DNA of 44,036 bases from Acidimicrobiia bacterium (GTDB lineage: Bacteria > Actinomycetota > Acidimicrobiia > Spongiisociales > Spongiisociaceae): NCBI GenBank assembly GCA_011523635.1, contig WTGI01000012.1:1-44036 (forward strand). Direction: 5' to 3'. Positions within the stretch are counted from its first letter, which is position 1, and each line of letters begins with the position of its first letter. A program made the position numbers and the translations under genes. This document shows positions 25,234 to 30,231 of this stretch, in pieces. Under the pieces are notes generated by a model. The model worked only from the letters and a program-made list of their open reading frames with translations. It was not told the DNA's origin and did no database searches.

Positions 25234-27363
25234 TCAACCGAACGCGCCGAACCACCGGTCGTGGATCTGCTTGTAGATGCCGGACTCGATGAGGTCCAGA
25301 AGGGCCAGGTCGATCTGCTCGCGTAGCGCGGTGTCGTCCTCGCTGACCATCAGCCCGTACTGGACCTTGTCGAACAGTGGCCCGACCGTGGTCACCGTGC
25401 CCTCGCCCCGGTGCGACACGTGGAATTGGAGAACCGGAGCATCGAACACGACCGCATCGACCTCGCCCTGCGCCAGCTGGTCGTAGGCGTCTTCGAGATC
25501 GTGCACCACGACCGGGCCGACACCGATACCGGCCAGGTAGTCGTATCCGGCCGAGTCATGGACGGTGGCGATCCGGTGACCCGGAAGATCGGCGGGTCCG
25601 TCGATGTTGCCGCGGAGTTCGTTCACCGCCAGCGAAGAGGCGATGGCAGCGGTGAAGCTGGCGAACACCAGGGTTCCCAGGGCGATCCAGATCAGGGCGA
25701 ACAGCCTGCCCGGTTGTCCGCGGGCCACCTTGTCGCCGTAACCGACCGTGCTCATGGTGACGACGGACCAGTAGAACGAGTCCCAGATGCCCCGGCCGTA
25801 CGGCACCGCGAAGTCCGGGTTGTGCTTCCGTTCCAGCCACCAGATCAGGTGGGCGGCGACCAGAACGGCTACCGCGAACACCACCAGCAGCCAGGGCAGG
25901 TCCGAACCCCAGATAGCCGACAGGAAGACCCCGATGCGGTCCCAAACCGCTTGGGAGCCACTGGTAGGGGTCATGATGGTGAGGCCGGTGTCCAGCAGGG
26001 GAAGGGAGAAGTCGATCGCTTCCTCGCGGGGGCCGGTGATCGCCGCGCCCCCCAGTCCCACGTCAGCCACCCCGCGGTTGATGTCGTCCACTTGCTTGGC
26101 GACGGTGTCGACCGCGTAGATCTCGACCGTCATGCCGAGGCGGGCGGCGATGAGCTCCACCAGGTCGACCTCGAAGCCGCTGTACGTACCTTGGTTGTAG
26201 ATCACGAAGGGCGGAAGGGTGCGGGCGGCTACATGGAGCACCCCGCCTGCGGCGACAGTGCCCCCGCCCACGACGCTGTCCAGGGCGATGGCCTCCGGAT
26301 CGGCGGCTTCGATCCACACGGACACCACGTTCGAATTACGTTCCACCCAATCTTGGGCGTGCCGCCGGATGTCCTCCGGGTCACCCTGGTCCCGGACCAT
26401 GTGGGCGTTCTGCGCGGAGATGTCCTCTAGGGAGATCACGACCTGTTCTAGTAGCCGGCGAACGGACGGGTTGGCATCGAGAAAGCGGGAGTTCGCCACA
26501 GCCCGGATGTCGTTGGGGGGCCATCCCACCAGGCACGGATCGTTGGCGCAGCCCGGTATGCCCGGTATCGACGTCTGGTCGAGAAAGGCCGACTGGTCAG
26601 GAGGCAGGGAGGGGAAAGGTGTCTCCAGCCACACCACGTCACGGCCTGGCACCAGCTGGCCGACGGTCCAGTTGGGAGTCCACGTGTAGTAGAGAACCGG
26701 TTGACCCGCCTCGAACCGGGCGATGGTCTCGGCGATTAGCGGCGAGTAGTCGCCCTGAACCTGTTCGACCGTGGCAGCCAGTCCGTACGCTTCCAGATGG
26801 TGTTCGATGACGTGGGAACAGGTCCAACCTGTCTCGCAACCGATCAGGTCGGCCCGCCCGTCGGCGTCCAGGTCGAACAGCGTGGCGATGTCAGGATCGG
26901 CCAGGTCTCCCAGGTTGGTGATACCGTGCGCCTCCGCGGTAGCCGCATCGGCGAAATAGCCTTGGAGCGCCCCTGCATCGACCTGGGTACCTACCCGCTC
27001 CACGATGTCTTCCTCTATGAGGCCGTCGTGGGTGGGGAACCACCCGTTCACCCAGAGATCGACGTCACCGGCGGCCACCGCGCGGTAGAAGTCCGGGTTC
27101 TCCATGGTGACCGGACCTTCCACGCGATACCCAAGGCGCATTAGGAGGAGACGGTATACCTCGGCCTGGAACCAGCCGGTGTCCCAGGTCGCCCTGGCCA
27201 TGCGCACGGTCTTCGCCTCGACGGGATCCTCCTCCGGCTGGCCCGAGGCAGGGACGACCGAACCCATGGCTAACAGTGCGAGAACCGACAGCAAGCAGGC
27301 GATCAGGGTGCGGCGCACGATGGTCTCCGGTAGGGACTGCGCCAAGGCTAGCGATGTCTCCAT
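25234..27363 (-). CDS. GluR0-type ligand-gated K+ channel with N-terminal ProX betaine-binding domain
   Basis: The 709-residue protein is a multidomain receptor channel. In order: a signal peptide (to about 42); a complete ProX-type domain (about 53-345) with cage tryptophans W108, W180 and W228 and a calcium-loop-like DxDxDGxxD at 164-172; S1 (about 375-470) with Arg446; M1 (about 489-509); a pore loop with the potassium filter TVGYGD (539-544); M2 (about 553-580), ending in SFTAAIASSLAV, which resembles the SYTANLAAF gate of glutamate receptors; and S2 (about 585-705) with Asp641. Arg446 and Asp641 sit where amino-acid-binding proteins hold the ligand's carboxylate and amino groups. The start is ATG 27363; GTG 27318, with GGAG in front, gives a more usual signal peptide. 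It is divergent from a betaine transporter operon. Confidence 0.88.
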   Translation of the reverse strand: METSLALAQSLPETIVRRTLIACLLSVLALLAMGSVVPASGQPEEDPVEAKTVRMARATWDTGWFQAEVYRLLLMRLGYRVEGPVTMENPDFYRAVAAGDVDLWVNGWFPTHDGLIEEDIVERVGTQVDAGALQGYFADAATAEAHGITNLGDLADPDIATLFDLDADGRADLIGCETGWTCSHVIEHHLEAYGLAATVEQVQGDYSPLIAETIARFEAGQPVLYYTWTPNWTVGQLVPGRDVVWLETPFPSLPPDQSAFLDQTSIPGIPGCANDPCLVGWPPNDIRAVANSRFLDANPSVRRLLEQVVISLEDISAQNAHMVRDQGDPEDIRRHAQDWVERNSNVVSVWIEAADPEAIALDSVVGGGTVAAGGVLHVAARTLPPFVIYNQGTYSGFEVDLVELIAARLGMTVEIYAVDTVAKQVDDINRGVADVGLGGAAITGPREEAIDFSLPLLDTGLTIMTPTSGSQAVWDRIGVFLSAIWGSDLPWLLVVFAVAVLVAAHLIWWLERKHNPDFAVPYGRGIWDSFYWSVVTMSTVGYGDKVARGQPGRLFALIWIALGTLVFASFTAAIASSLAVNELRGNIDGPADLPGHRIATVHDSAGYDYLAGIGVGPVVVHDLEDAYDQLAQGEVDAVVFDAPVLQFHVSHRGEGTVTTVGPLFDKVQYGLMVSEDDTALREQIDLALLDLIESGIYKQIHDRWFGAFG

Positions 27364-27517
27364 ACGTCCTCATGGAACAAATACCTGGGTTTCTCCGTAC
27401 TCGCGGTCCGCTTCGGCTATAAAGTGAATGGGCACAGGGCTCGGCTGTGAATTGCCGTGCACCCTGCAGGCGATTGAAAGGAGGCCCGTATGGTCATGAG
27501 AATCGGGAGGAGGTTCC
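27364..27517. promoter_or_regulatory. divergent promoter region between channel and BCCT operon
   Basis: This 154-bp spacer must drive both directions. A T/A-rich core, GGCTATAAAGTG (27413-27424), contains -10-like hexamers on both strands (TATAAA or TAAAGT on plus, TATAGC on minus). A CACAG-N7-CTGTG palindrome at about 27435-27451 could be an operator. The elements are suggestive only; shared regulation of the two units is inferred. Confidence 0.35.
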
Positions 27518-27525
27518 ATGGCTGA
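27490..27525 (+). CDS. possible 11-codon leader peptide overlapping the BCCT start
   Basis: ATG 27490 has a very strong AAAGGAGG ribosome site. The frame reads MVMRIGRRFHG and stops at TGA 27523-27525, five bases beyond the BCCT ATG (27518). The BCCT gene has its own GGGAGGAGG site inside this small frame. It may couple or limit BCCT translation. It could equally be a chance frame. Confidence 0.35.
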   Translation: MVMRIGRRFHG

Positions 27526-29296
27526 CGATCAACGCCACGACCACGACCTGGACCTCACCGGCATCTCCGAGGCCTACGAGGACTGGGAGAGGGACCAAGA
27601 CCGCCGCCGTGAGGCTGCCATCCGGGAACGTGCGCACTTCCAGGGTCTTCAGGTAGACCCTGACATCGACTTCTATCCCGAGGTGGCCGACCGGGAGCCC
27701 GGTGACAAGAACATAGTCAGGTGGGGATTCGACATACATCCCCAGGTGACGTTCTACGCCGCGGGATTCCTGGTGATCTTCATCGCGGCCACCCTGATCT
27801 TCCCGGATCAGGCGGGCGGGGTGTTCAGCGCCATCCTCACCTTCATCAACGAGAAGGTGGGCTGGCTGTACATCATCGCGTTCAACGTCTTCATCGGCGC
27901 CGCGCTCTACTTCGCGTTGGGCAGGTACGGGAAGATACGACTAGGCGGCCCGGGGGCCCTTCCGGAGTTCTCCACCCCCGCCTGGTACGCCATGCTGATC
28001 TCGGCCGGTCTCGGTATCGGGCTGATGTTCTGGGGCGTGGCAGAGCCGATCTTCCACCTGACCGCGCCGCCTCCTCTGTTCGACGTAGAACCCTTGTCGA
28101 CGGGCGCGGCCCGGGCCTCTCTGGCGACCTCCTACCTCCACTGGGGGATCCATGGGTGGGCGCTGTACGGCCTTGTAGCCCTCGCCCTCGGGTTCTTCGC
28201 CTATAACCGGGGACTGCCCCTGACCTTCCGCTCGGTCTTCTACCCGATCCTCGGCCCGAAGATCTACGGCGGATGGGGCAATGCGATCGACATCCTCACC
28301 GTGGTGGCCACCCTCTTCGGCCTGGCCACTTCGCTGGGGTTCGGCGCCTCGCAGGCCGCCGCGGGGCTGAACAAGGTCTTCGGTGTACCGGATACCCTGT
28401 TGGTCCAGATTCTGCTGATCGCAGGTATCACGGGGCTGGCCACCATCTCGGTTGTGGCTGGCTTGGACGCCGGGGTCAAGAGGCTCAGCGCGCTCAACGT
28501 ATGGCTGGCCGCGGCCTTCCTGGTCTTCGTGTTGGCGGTGGGCCCGACCTTGCTGGTCCTCTCCCTGTACGTGGAGAGCATCGGCGTCTACATCCAGATC
28601 CTGCCGGAGTTCTCGTTCTGGAACGCAGCCCTGCTCGACACGCAGTGGCAGCAATGGTGGACCATCTTCTACTGGGGATGGTGGATCTCCTGGTCTCCCT
28701 TCGTCGGCATGTTCATCGCCCGGATCTCCAAGGGGCGCTCGGTGCGGGAGATGATCATCGGTGTGATCGTCCTTCCCTGCCTCCTGTGCTTCCTGTGGTT
28801 CGCGGTGTTCGGCGGAGCGGCCATGAACTTGCAGATGACCGGCGAACTGGACGTTGCTACGGCGGTGAACGAAAACGTGGCGACAGCCCTGTTCGTGATG
28901 CTGGAGGCCTTCCCATGGACCTTCTTCGTCTCGATAGTGGGCATCCTGTTGCTGGTCTCGTTCTTCGTCACCTCGTCGGACTCGGGATCCCTGGTGGTTG
29001 ACCACCTGACCTCGGGCGGAAAGCTCGACTCGCCCAAGCCGCAGCGCGTGTTCTGGGCGTTGATGGAAGGCGCGGTGGCAATCGTGTTGCTGGCGGGAGG
29101 CGGCCTGTCCGCCCTCCAGACCGCAGCGGTGGCGACCGGACTGCCGTTCCTCTTCGTGCTACTGATAATGCTGTGGAGCCTGAAGAAGGCCTTCGACGAG
29201 GAACTCGACCTCCTGGAGAGCCACTACGACGAGGCCATCTTCCAAGCCCAACACAGCGGCTTGATCGAGCGGCTGGAGAGAGGAGGTGACAAGTGA
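27518..29296 (+). CDS. BCCT-family betaine/choline/carnitine transporter
   Basis: The 592-residue secondary transporter has a long acidic N-terminus (about 1-70) and about twelve membrane helices. The BCCT signature in helix 8 (WWISWSPFVGMFIARIS, from residue 388) holds the tryptophans that bind quaternary amines. The helix-3 GLGIGLMFWGVAEP (about 162-176) resembles the sodium-coupled betaine carriers. It should import glycine betaine or a related solute with sodium or proton. ATG 27518 has a GGGAGGAGG site. Its stop overlaps the start of a ProX-type lipoprotein gene (GTGA), an unusual partner for a BCCT carrier. Confidence 0.95.
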   Translation: MADDQRHDHDLDLTGISEAYEDWERDQDRRREAAIRERAHFQGLQVDPDIDFYPEVADREPGDKNIVRWGFDIHPQVTFYAAGFLVIFIAATLIFPDQAGGVFSAILTFINEKVGWLYIIAFNVFIGAALYFALGRYGKIRLGGPGALPEFSTPAWYAMLISAGLGIGLMFWGVAEPIFHLTAPPPLFDVEPLSTGAARASLATSYLHWGIHGWALYGLVALALGFFAYNRGLPLTFRSVFYPILGPKIYGGWGNAIDILTVVATLFGLATSLGFGASQAAAGLNKVFGVPDTLLVQILLIAGITGLATISVVAGLDAGVKRLSALNVWLAAAFLVFVLAVGPTLLVLSLYVESIGVYIQILPEFSFWNAALLDTQWQQWWTIFYWGWWISWSPFVGMFIARISKGRSVREMIIGVIVLPCLLCFLWFAVFGGAAMNLQMTGELDVATAVNENVATALFVMLEAFPWTFFVSIVGILLLVSFFVTSSDSGSLVVDHLTSGGKLDSPKPQRVFWALMEGAVAIVLLAGGGLSALQTAAVATGLPFLFVLLIMLWSLKKAFDEELDLLESHYDEAIFQAQHSGLIERLERGGDK

Positions 29297-30231
29297 TCAA
29301 GAGATCGAGCACTCGGATCGCCGCGGTCGCGGCCTTCGTGCTGGTGCTCTCGGCCTGCGCCGTGCAGGAAGAGGAGGGCCCTGTGGCGATCGCCCGGGCC
29401 GACTGGAGTTCCGGCTACATGCAGGCCGCCATCTACGCGCAGCTGATCGAGGAGCTCGGGTACGAGGTCACCGATCCGGCGGCTGCCGAGCTCAGGCCCT
29501 ACTCGTTCTATCCCGCTCTTGCGGCCGGACAGTACGACCTGTGGGCCAACGGCTGGTTCCCACTCCACAACATCTTCCTGGAGGGAGAGAACGTCACCGG
29601 CCAAGCGGTCGATCTGCCCATCGAGGCCGTGGGCTGGCAGGTGGCCGGCGGCGGCGGCGAAGGCATCATGGTCGACAAGGCCACGGCCGACCGGCTGGGA
29701 ATCTCCTCGATGGACGGTGTGGCCGCCAACGCCGGCGTCTTCGACAAGAACGGCAACGGCAAGGCGGACTTCATCGGCTGCAATGTCGGATGGGGATGCC
29801 AGATCGCCTTCAACGAACAGATCGCCAACGAGAGCTGGGGCGCAGGCGTGGAGCAGATCTCCGGCACCTACGACCAGCTGATCAGAGGCGTCATCGACGA
29901 AATAGAGGCCGGCGAGTCGGCGGTGTTCTATGCCTGGACCCCCAACTGGACCAGCACCGTCCTGGTGCCGGGCCAGAATGCCGTGTGGGTCCAGTCGGAC
30001 ATCAACGACATCCGGGCGGTGGCCAACACCGACTTCCTGGATAGGAACCCGGACATCCGCCGCCTCCTCGAGGTGGTGGCGATCCCGTTGGGCGACATCG
30101 CAGCGCAGAACGCCAGGATGGCCGCCGGGGAGTACTCCGAGGCTGACGTCGCGGCTGACGCCGAGGCCTGGATCGCCGATAACCGAGCTCAGGTCGACGA
30201 CTGGCTGGCAACGGCACGCGCCGCCGGCTGA
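29293..30231 (+). CDS. ProX-type betaine-binding lipoprotein paired with BCCT
   Basis: The 312-residue protein has a lipoprotein signal with lipobox LSAC (Cys22), so it is tethered to the outer face of the membrane. The rest is a ProX-type substrate-binding protein. W88 (in NGWFP), W167 (in GCNVGWGC) and W215 (in FYAWTP) match the three tryptophans of the E. coli ProX aromatic cage, which bind glycine betaine or proline betaine. A calcium-loop-like DxNxNGxxD lies at 151-159. No ABC permease or ATPase gene is nearby. It is coupled to the BCCT gene by a GTGA overlap and has a good ribosome site (GAGGAGGT). It is a close paralogue of the channel's N-terminal domain. Confidence 0.93.
   Translation: MIKRSSTRIAAVAAFVLVLSACAVQEEEGPVAIARADWSSGYMQAAIYAQLIEELGYEVTDPAAAELRPYSFYPALAAGQYDLWANGWFPLHNIFLEGENVTGQAVDLPIEAVGWQVAGGGGEGIMVDKATADRLGISSMDGVAANAGVFDKNGNGKADFIGCNVGWGCQIAFNEQIANESWGAGVEQISGTYDQLIRGVIDEIEAGESAVFYAWTPNWTSTVLVPGQNAVWVQSDINDIRAVANTDFLDRNPDIRRLLEVVAIPLGDIAAQNARMAAGEYSEADVAADAEAWIADNRAQVDDWLATARAAG

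Follow-up and report, generated by a model that had tools for sequence, protein, structure and literature searches.

A ProX-type betaine-binding domain at the amino terminus of predicted GluR0-type potassium channels in several bacterial phyla

Introduction

Can a bacterial channel of the glutamate receptor type carry a betaine-binding protein as its amino-terminal domain, and what would such a channel sense? The question is raised by an open reading frame on contig WTGI01000012.1 of an Acidimicrobiia bacterium (assembly GCA_011523635.1), which was analysed over its whole stretch of 44,036 nucleotides, here called the window. An earlier note, made from the sequence alone, read this frame as a potassium channel receptor with a ProX domain placed in front of the channel.

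The GluR0 receptors of Synechocystis (slr1257) and Nostoc punctiforme share with this protein the order S1-M1-P-M2-S2, a K+-type filter, a signal peptide and an amino-acid-binding core, but they have no amino-terminal domain. GluR0 was stated to be without an NTD (PMC6385376), and nearly all GluR0-like matches in cyanobacteria were frames of about 360-440 aa. Those iGluRs of animals and plants that have an amino-terminal domain show the same order of ATD, LBD and pore, whereas the protein described here has a ProX-type amino-terminal fold, lacks M4 and has a K+ filter. E. coli ProX of the ProU system and OpuAC domains resemble its amino-terminal part in fold, in the betaine cage and in the equivalents of Cys136 and Cys142, but E. 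coli ProX is the periplasmic protein of an ABC transporter and not the N-terminal domain of a channel. A betaine-binding domain is also fused to a membrane protein in OpuF and OpuA (OpuF is cited in PMC7876524); these, however, are ABC transporters.

Results

A single frame encodes ProX and the channel

The frame was confirmed at 25234..27363 on the minus strand, where it is single and uninterrupted, with 709 codons counted from the ATG at 27363. Its extent up to 27363 had been claimed as well; the frame is intact over this length, but the ATG is probably not the translation start. Because many relatives begin to align only at codon 16-17, with 'MRRT...' or 'MRR', and because GGAG is located 6 bases 5' of the GTG at 27316-27318 (codon 16), this GTG is the likelier start from the sequence, and the protein made from it would have ~694 aa. 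The choice between the two starts leaves the architecture unchanged, and residues are numbered from the ATG below.

All features of the receptor lie on the minus strand. The signal peptide region (27238..27363, residues 1-42) was assigned from the sequence and from a helix at residues 13-34 of the predicted structure, with low confidence around it. It is followed by the ProX (OpuAC) domain at 26293..27219 (residues 49-357), which holds the putative cage residues W108, H112, W180, C182 and W228, and by a linker at 26251..26292 (residues 358-371), which is predicted to be disordered and evolves fastest within the mature protein. The S1 half of the amino-acid-binding domain, containing R446, is encoded at 25966..26250 (residues 372-466), and the S2 half, containing D641, at 25237..25611 (residues 585-709). 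Between the two halves are M1, the pore helix, the filter and M2 (25612..25899, residues 489-584), with the K+ selectivity filter TVGYGD at 25732..25749 (residues 539-544).

Pfam searches matched OpuAC/ProX at residues 51-341 (E 1e-51), SBP_bac_3 split across 381-706, Ion_trans_2 at 497-578 and Lig_chan at 491-594, all exceeding the curated cut-offs. The NCBIfam ProX model NF008334 scored 343 bits on the N-terminal part against a cut-off of 215. The SBP_bac_3-type ligand domain is interrupted by two TM helices and a pore loop, as in GluR0-type channels. The order that had been read from the sequence, from the signal peptide through ProX, S1, M1, the TVGYGD filter and M2 to S2, was confirmed. 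The animal-type N-terminal domain family (LIVBP/ANF-like, with the Type-I periplasmic-binding fold) gave no Pfam match on the receptor.

The AlphaFold model, built on an alignment of 42 sequences, had a mean pLDDT of 83.7. The ProX and S1-S2 domains were well folded in it, and helices M1, P and M2 were present. The best PDB match of the ProX part was 1r9l, E. coli ProX with glycine betaine (Z 38.4, 1.6 A, 298 residues), and that of S1-S2 was 2pyy, the Nostoc GluR0 core with glutamate (Z 28.9, 1.9 A, 214 residues). The ProX fold, taken with the Pfam result, supports the idea that this is a prokaryotic amino-terminal domain convergent with that of animal receptors. Since the pTM was 0.51 and the linker at 359-371 had a pLDDT under 50, the orientation of ProX relative to S1-S2 is uncertain in the model, and a mechanical coupling between them is a proposal.

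The fused order is present in dozens of assemblies

The earlier note had named an assembly join or a frameshift near codons 345-375 as the finding that would overturn its reading. Relatives were sought in 59 related genomes and in GTDB contigs. ProX-S1-M1-P-M2-S2 was present as one frame in 57 distinct proteins including the receptor, that is, at no fewer than 56 other loci in several phyla. In Actinomycetota they were from Acidimicrobiia, Nitriliruptorales with Salsipaludibacter, and Jiangellaceae; in Cyanobacteriota, from Leptolyngbyaceae, Halomicronema and Symploca. Others were found in Desulfobacterota/Myxococcota, in Chloroflexota and in Bacteroidota (a MAG labelled GSL), and a copy from Kiritimatiellae was near full length, truncated by the contig end. 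Named strains with the fused order include Salsipaludibacter albus AS10 and Haloactinopolyspora alba DSM 45211. All 42 representative relatives examined contained the five core Pfam families (OpuAC, SBP_bac_3, Ion_trans_2, Lig_chan and Ion_trans).

Pairwise dN/dS was about 0.10-0.14 for ProX, mostly 0.05-0.4 for S1 and S2 and 0.03-0.18 for the pore (channel parts overall mostly 0.02-0.4), with one near-identical pair yielding zeros; a 19-residue linker was faster, at 0.25-0.5. Purifying selection maintains both the ProX and the channel halves. If the receptor were an artefact, made by joining or frameshifting two genes, the same order would not be expected in 57 distinct full-length proteins from dozens of independent assemblies, with both parts under purifying selection. 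Nothing at the receptor locus speaks for a join, and we reject this explanation as exceedingly improbable.

Three fused copies (L078, L082 and L083) were broken into two frames in draft genomes, by sequencing error or by decay.

Ligand-site residues are retained

In E. coli ProX, the ligand residues are W65, H69, W140, G141, C142 and W188 (PMC10087775). The equivalents of W65 (W108), W140 (W180) and C142 (C182) were kept in 57/57 fused proteins and that of H69 (H112) in 49/57. The position of W188 (W228) was always aromatic (W in 49, F in 7 and Y in 1 of the 57), and that of G141 (T181) was variable. Two cis-prolines of ProX align Trp65 and Trp188 (PMC8601584); the prolines adjoining the corresponding tryptophans, P67 and P190, were present in all 57. 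The betaine cage, as located by alignment, is conserved across the fused proteins.

In the S1-S2 domain, R446 was found in 57/57 and D641 in 56/57 fused proteins, and both align with the Nostoc GluR0 core. These are the positions at which iGluRs and amino-acid binding proteins hold the carboxylate and the amine of the ligand. The pore filter TVGYGD was kept in 56/57.

Two kinds of deviation were observed. W228 was replaced by F or Y in eight relatives (L053, L054, L057, L058, L063, L072, L079 and L096), which may have a shifted ligand preference. In two Jiangellaceae copies, from Haloactinopolyspora and Phytoactinopolyspora (L065 and L083), the architecture was kept with TPFGAGN in place of TVGYGD, and K+ selectivity is probably altered in these two.

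The receptor gene is linked to a betaine-type transporter

Across a divergent intergenic region of 154 bp (27364..27517), the receptor gene faces a gene for a BCCT (betaine/carnitine/choline-type) transporter on the plus strand (27518..29296; PF02028, E 2.5e-184), the sole BCCT of the genome. A stand-alone ProX-type lipoprotein with the lipobox LSAC follows on the same strand (29293..30231), overlapping the BCCT stop. ProW homologues gave strong matches on three other contigs of the genome (C9, C13 and C63) and none on the receptor's contig (C37); by this search, the locus lacks the linked ProV/ProW that would mark ProX as a subunit of an ABC transporter.

At 43 of the 57 loci compared, from several phyla, a BCCT gene was located within about 1.5 kb of the receptor gene. 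Four arrangements occurred: the BCCT gene was upstream and divergent at 27 loci, upstream and co-directional at 8, downstream on the other strand at 4 and downstream in the same direction at 4. These 57 loci differ slightly from the 57 proteins, as they include four broken or partial copies and leave out four short loci; several of the 14 loci without BCCT are short contigs. The counts are of loci and not of independent events, with Acidimicrobiia dominating, so that the independent evidence consists of a handful of differing arrangements. The adjacency extends to Chloroflexota, Kiritimatiellae and deltaproteobacterial lineages, and stand-alone ProX genes also adjoin in several lineages. Salsipaludibacter albus, for example, has the receptor, BCCT and ProX genes at one locus. 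No BCCT was found in the examined flanks of the cyanobacterial, Jiangellales and Bacteroidota fused copies. Among channel-only GluR0-like loci, 0/46 had a BCCT or ProX neighbour in flanks of about 1.5 kb, after the one match (L116), a fragment belonging to the fused family, had been excluded.

Whatever domains the receptor itself has, the BCCT linkage connects it with betaine, and this is added evidence for the osmolyte reading of the receptor. Inspection by eye of part of the alignment of the receptor-BCCT intergenic region revealed no clear motif of a conserved operator outside the start-codon regions.

Origin of the fusion

GluR0-like channels were detected in 50 of 292 cyanobacterial genomes searched, and only two of these 50 had the long form; in the phylum of the Desulfosarcinaceae relative, they were detected in 13/247 genomes, with one long form. 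In a tree of the channel part (74 rows), all fused proteins were in one branch (100/99), which also contained three channel-only cyanobacterial proteins. This branch was surrounded by GluR0-like channels, both cyanobacterial and other, and the named GluR0 proteins were not among the identifiable rows. In the ProX tree, the fused domains clustered, except that of Chloroflexota L069. A single clade of fused proteins was not rejected in either tree (p-AU 0.24 for the channel and 0.49 for ProX); by the same values, multiple origins of the fusion are not required. The simplest reading of these trees would be one fusion, then spread, perhaps with a loss.

Derivation of the fused ProX from the adjacent ProX lipoprotein was not supported, the BCCT-linked lipoproteins forming a separate branch (100/99). 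No other amino-terminal domain was recognised on GluR0-like channels in ~400 Actinomycetota, ~290 cyanobacterial and ~250 Desulfobacterota genomes, the longer channel frames L114, L115 and L117 being judged by eye only.

Other fusions of ProX were seen during the searches. A Chloroflexaceae frame (L086:294-2465) joins ProX to SBP_bac_3 without a channel, a fusion of two sensors with no pore. The genome of the receptor itself has a frame with two tandem ProX domains (L004, C63:2647-4602), of which the first 900 aligned bases are identical; this points to a duplication of recent date, to gene conversion or to an effect of the assembly. Paired ProX matches in one frame were also found in three other genomes (G009, G010 and G011).

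Discussion

The proposal of the earlier note, that ProX forms the amino-terminal domain of a GluR0-type K+ channel, has the support of the sequence, the predicted structure, the range of phyla and the conserved cage. We consider it fairly probable that the protein is an osmolyte-sensing channel, which recognises betaine outside the cell through its amino-terminal domain and adjusts K+ flux in parallel with the uptake of betaine. The identity of the ligand, the tetramer, the coupling to gating, the sign of modulation, the direction of K+ flux and the physiological role are matters that we infer, as are the modulation of the pore by betaine and its opening by an amino acid in S1-S2.

The receptor would be a subunit of a presumably tetrameric, K+-selective ligand-gated channel of GluR0 type in the plasma membrane, each subunit carrying two extracellular clamshells. 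The ligand of the ProX clamshell would be an osmoprotectant of the quaternary-amine type, with glycine betaine or proline betaine the likeliest, and that of the S1-S2 clamshell an amino acid. Closure of ProX on betaine could act through the short linker on S1-S2 and thereby alter how easily the K+ pore opens. Because the receptor gene adjoins the BCCT and ProX lipoprotein genes, its likely role would be to coordinate K+ flux with betaine supply. For salt-stressed cells full of K+ glutamate, the arrival of betaine could be the signal to release K+ during betaine uptake. The presence of the fused architecture in many phyla, usually beside a betaine transporter, suggests a channel that aids the exchange of K+ for betaine.

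What is known of GluR0 is consistent with this proposal. It is a K+ channel whose N and C termini both lie outside the cell; deletion changes how cell volume behaves under KCl stress, and the authors propose that glutamate set free when cells replace K+ glutamate by compatible solutes activates the channel (PMC13099474). In B. subtilis, K+ export accompanies the accumulation of compatible solutes, and in the model for that species intracellular signals, c-di-AMP among them, match K+ release to betaine uptake (PMC8844918). A channel that reads both an extracellular amino acid and betaine would fit such an exchange, and an extracellular betaine-sensing channel would give a direct link from betaine uptake to K+ release.

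Several other roles of the ProX domain have to be weighed against an osmolyte sensor. It might bind betaine mainly to capture it for the BCCT carrier, in a receptor-BCCT complex where the K+ pore balances the charge of Na+-coupled betaine uptake and is not gated by a signal. The close and recurrent BCCT linkage and the conserved cage would suit such a partner. Many loci, however, already have a separate stand-alone ProX lipoprotein beside BCCT, the cyanobacterial copies have no BCCT nearby, and conservation also covers the S1-S2 ligand site and the pore linker, for which a simple adaptor would have no use; we regard this role as unlikely. The amino-terminal domain of animal iGluRs has assembly roles, and ProX could likewise be a structural or assembly domain without functional ligand binding, as the AMPA-receptor NTD largely is, in a channel that answers only to the amino acid in S1-S2. 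The unconstrained domain orientation in the model would allow this, but cage positions aromatic in 57/57 proteins, a ProX dN/dS of about 0.1 and the linkage with a betaine-type transporter make it rather improbable.

An osmolyte sensor might also work by the same mechanism on a quaternary amine or onium compound other than glycine betaine (choline, DMSP, carnitine or proline betaine). BCCT carriers and cluster F binding proteins cover these ligands, and eight relatives have F or Y at the third cage position. As E. coli ProX is the nearest match in family and among solved folds, and nearly all of its ligand residues are kept, we think that a ligand other than glycine betaine is quite improbable.

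With osmolyte sensing as the preferred reading, a bolder one can be considered: that these proteins form a widespread and so far undescribed class of bacterial ionotropic receptors gated by osmolytes, where glycine betaine outside the cell acts through ProX and, jointly with an amino acid, gates the K+ pore directly. We give this an even chance. If true, this would physically couple the replacement of K+ glutamate by compatible solute, and iGluR-type channels would have gained a regulatory amino-terminal domain independently in bacteria. Such a bacterial counterpart of the animal glutamate receptor domain, with a different fold, would be a natural experiment on pore control.

The ProX and GluR0-type modules are each known; their combination and the BCCT linkage appear undescribed. 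A 2010 survey of prokaryotic glutamate receptor channels listed domain sets without OpuAC/ProX (PMC2950845). No description of a GluR0 with ProX, or of a betaine-binding domain fused to a channel, was found in the open-access PMC literature, in line with the earlier note, which was aware of none.

The pair formed by BCCT and the overlapping ProX lipoprotein (27518-30231 in the window) is itself conserved, even at loci without an adjoining fused channel (L102-L104). BCCT carriers are described as driven by ion gradients, and binding proteins are mentioned for ABC systems only (PMC7876524); for this reason, a BCCT linked to a binding protein may be new.
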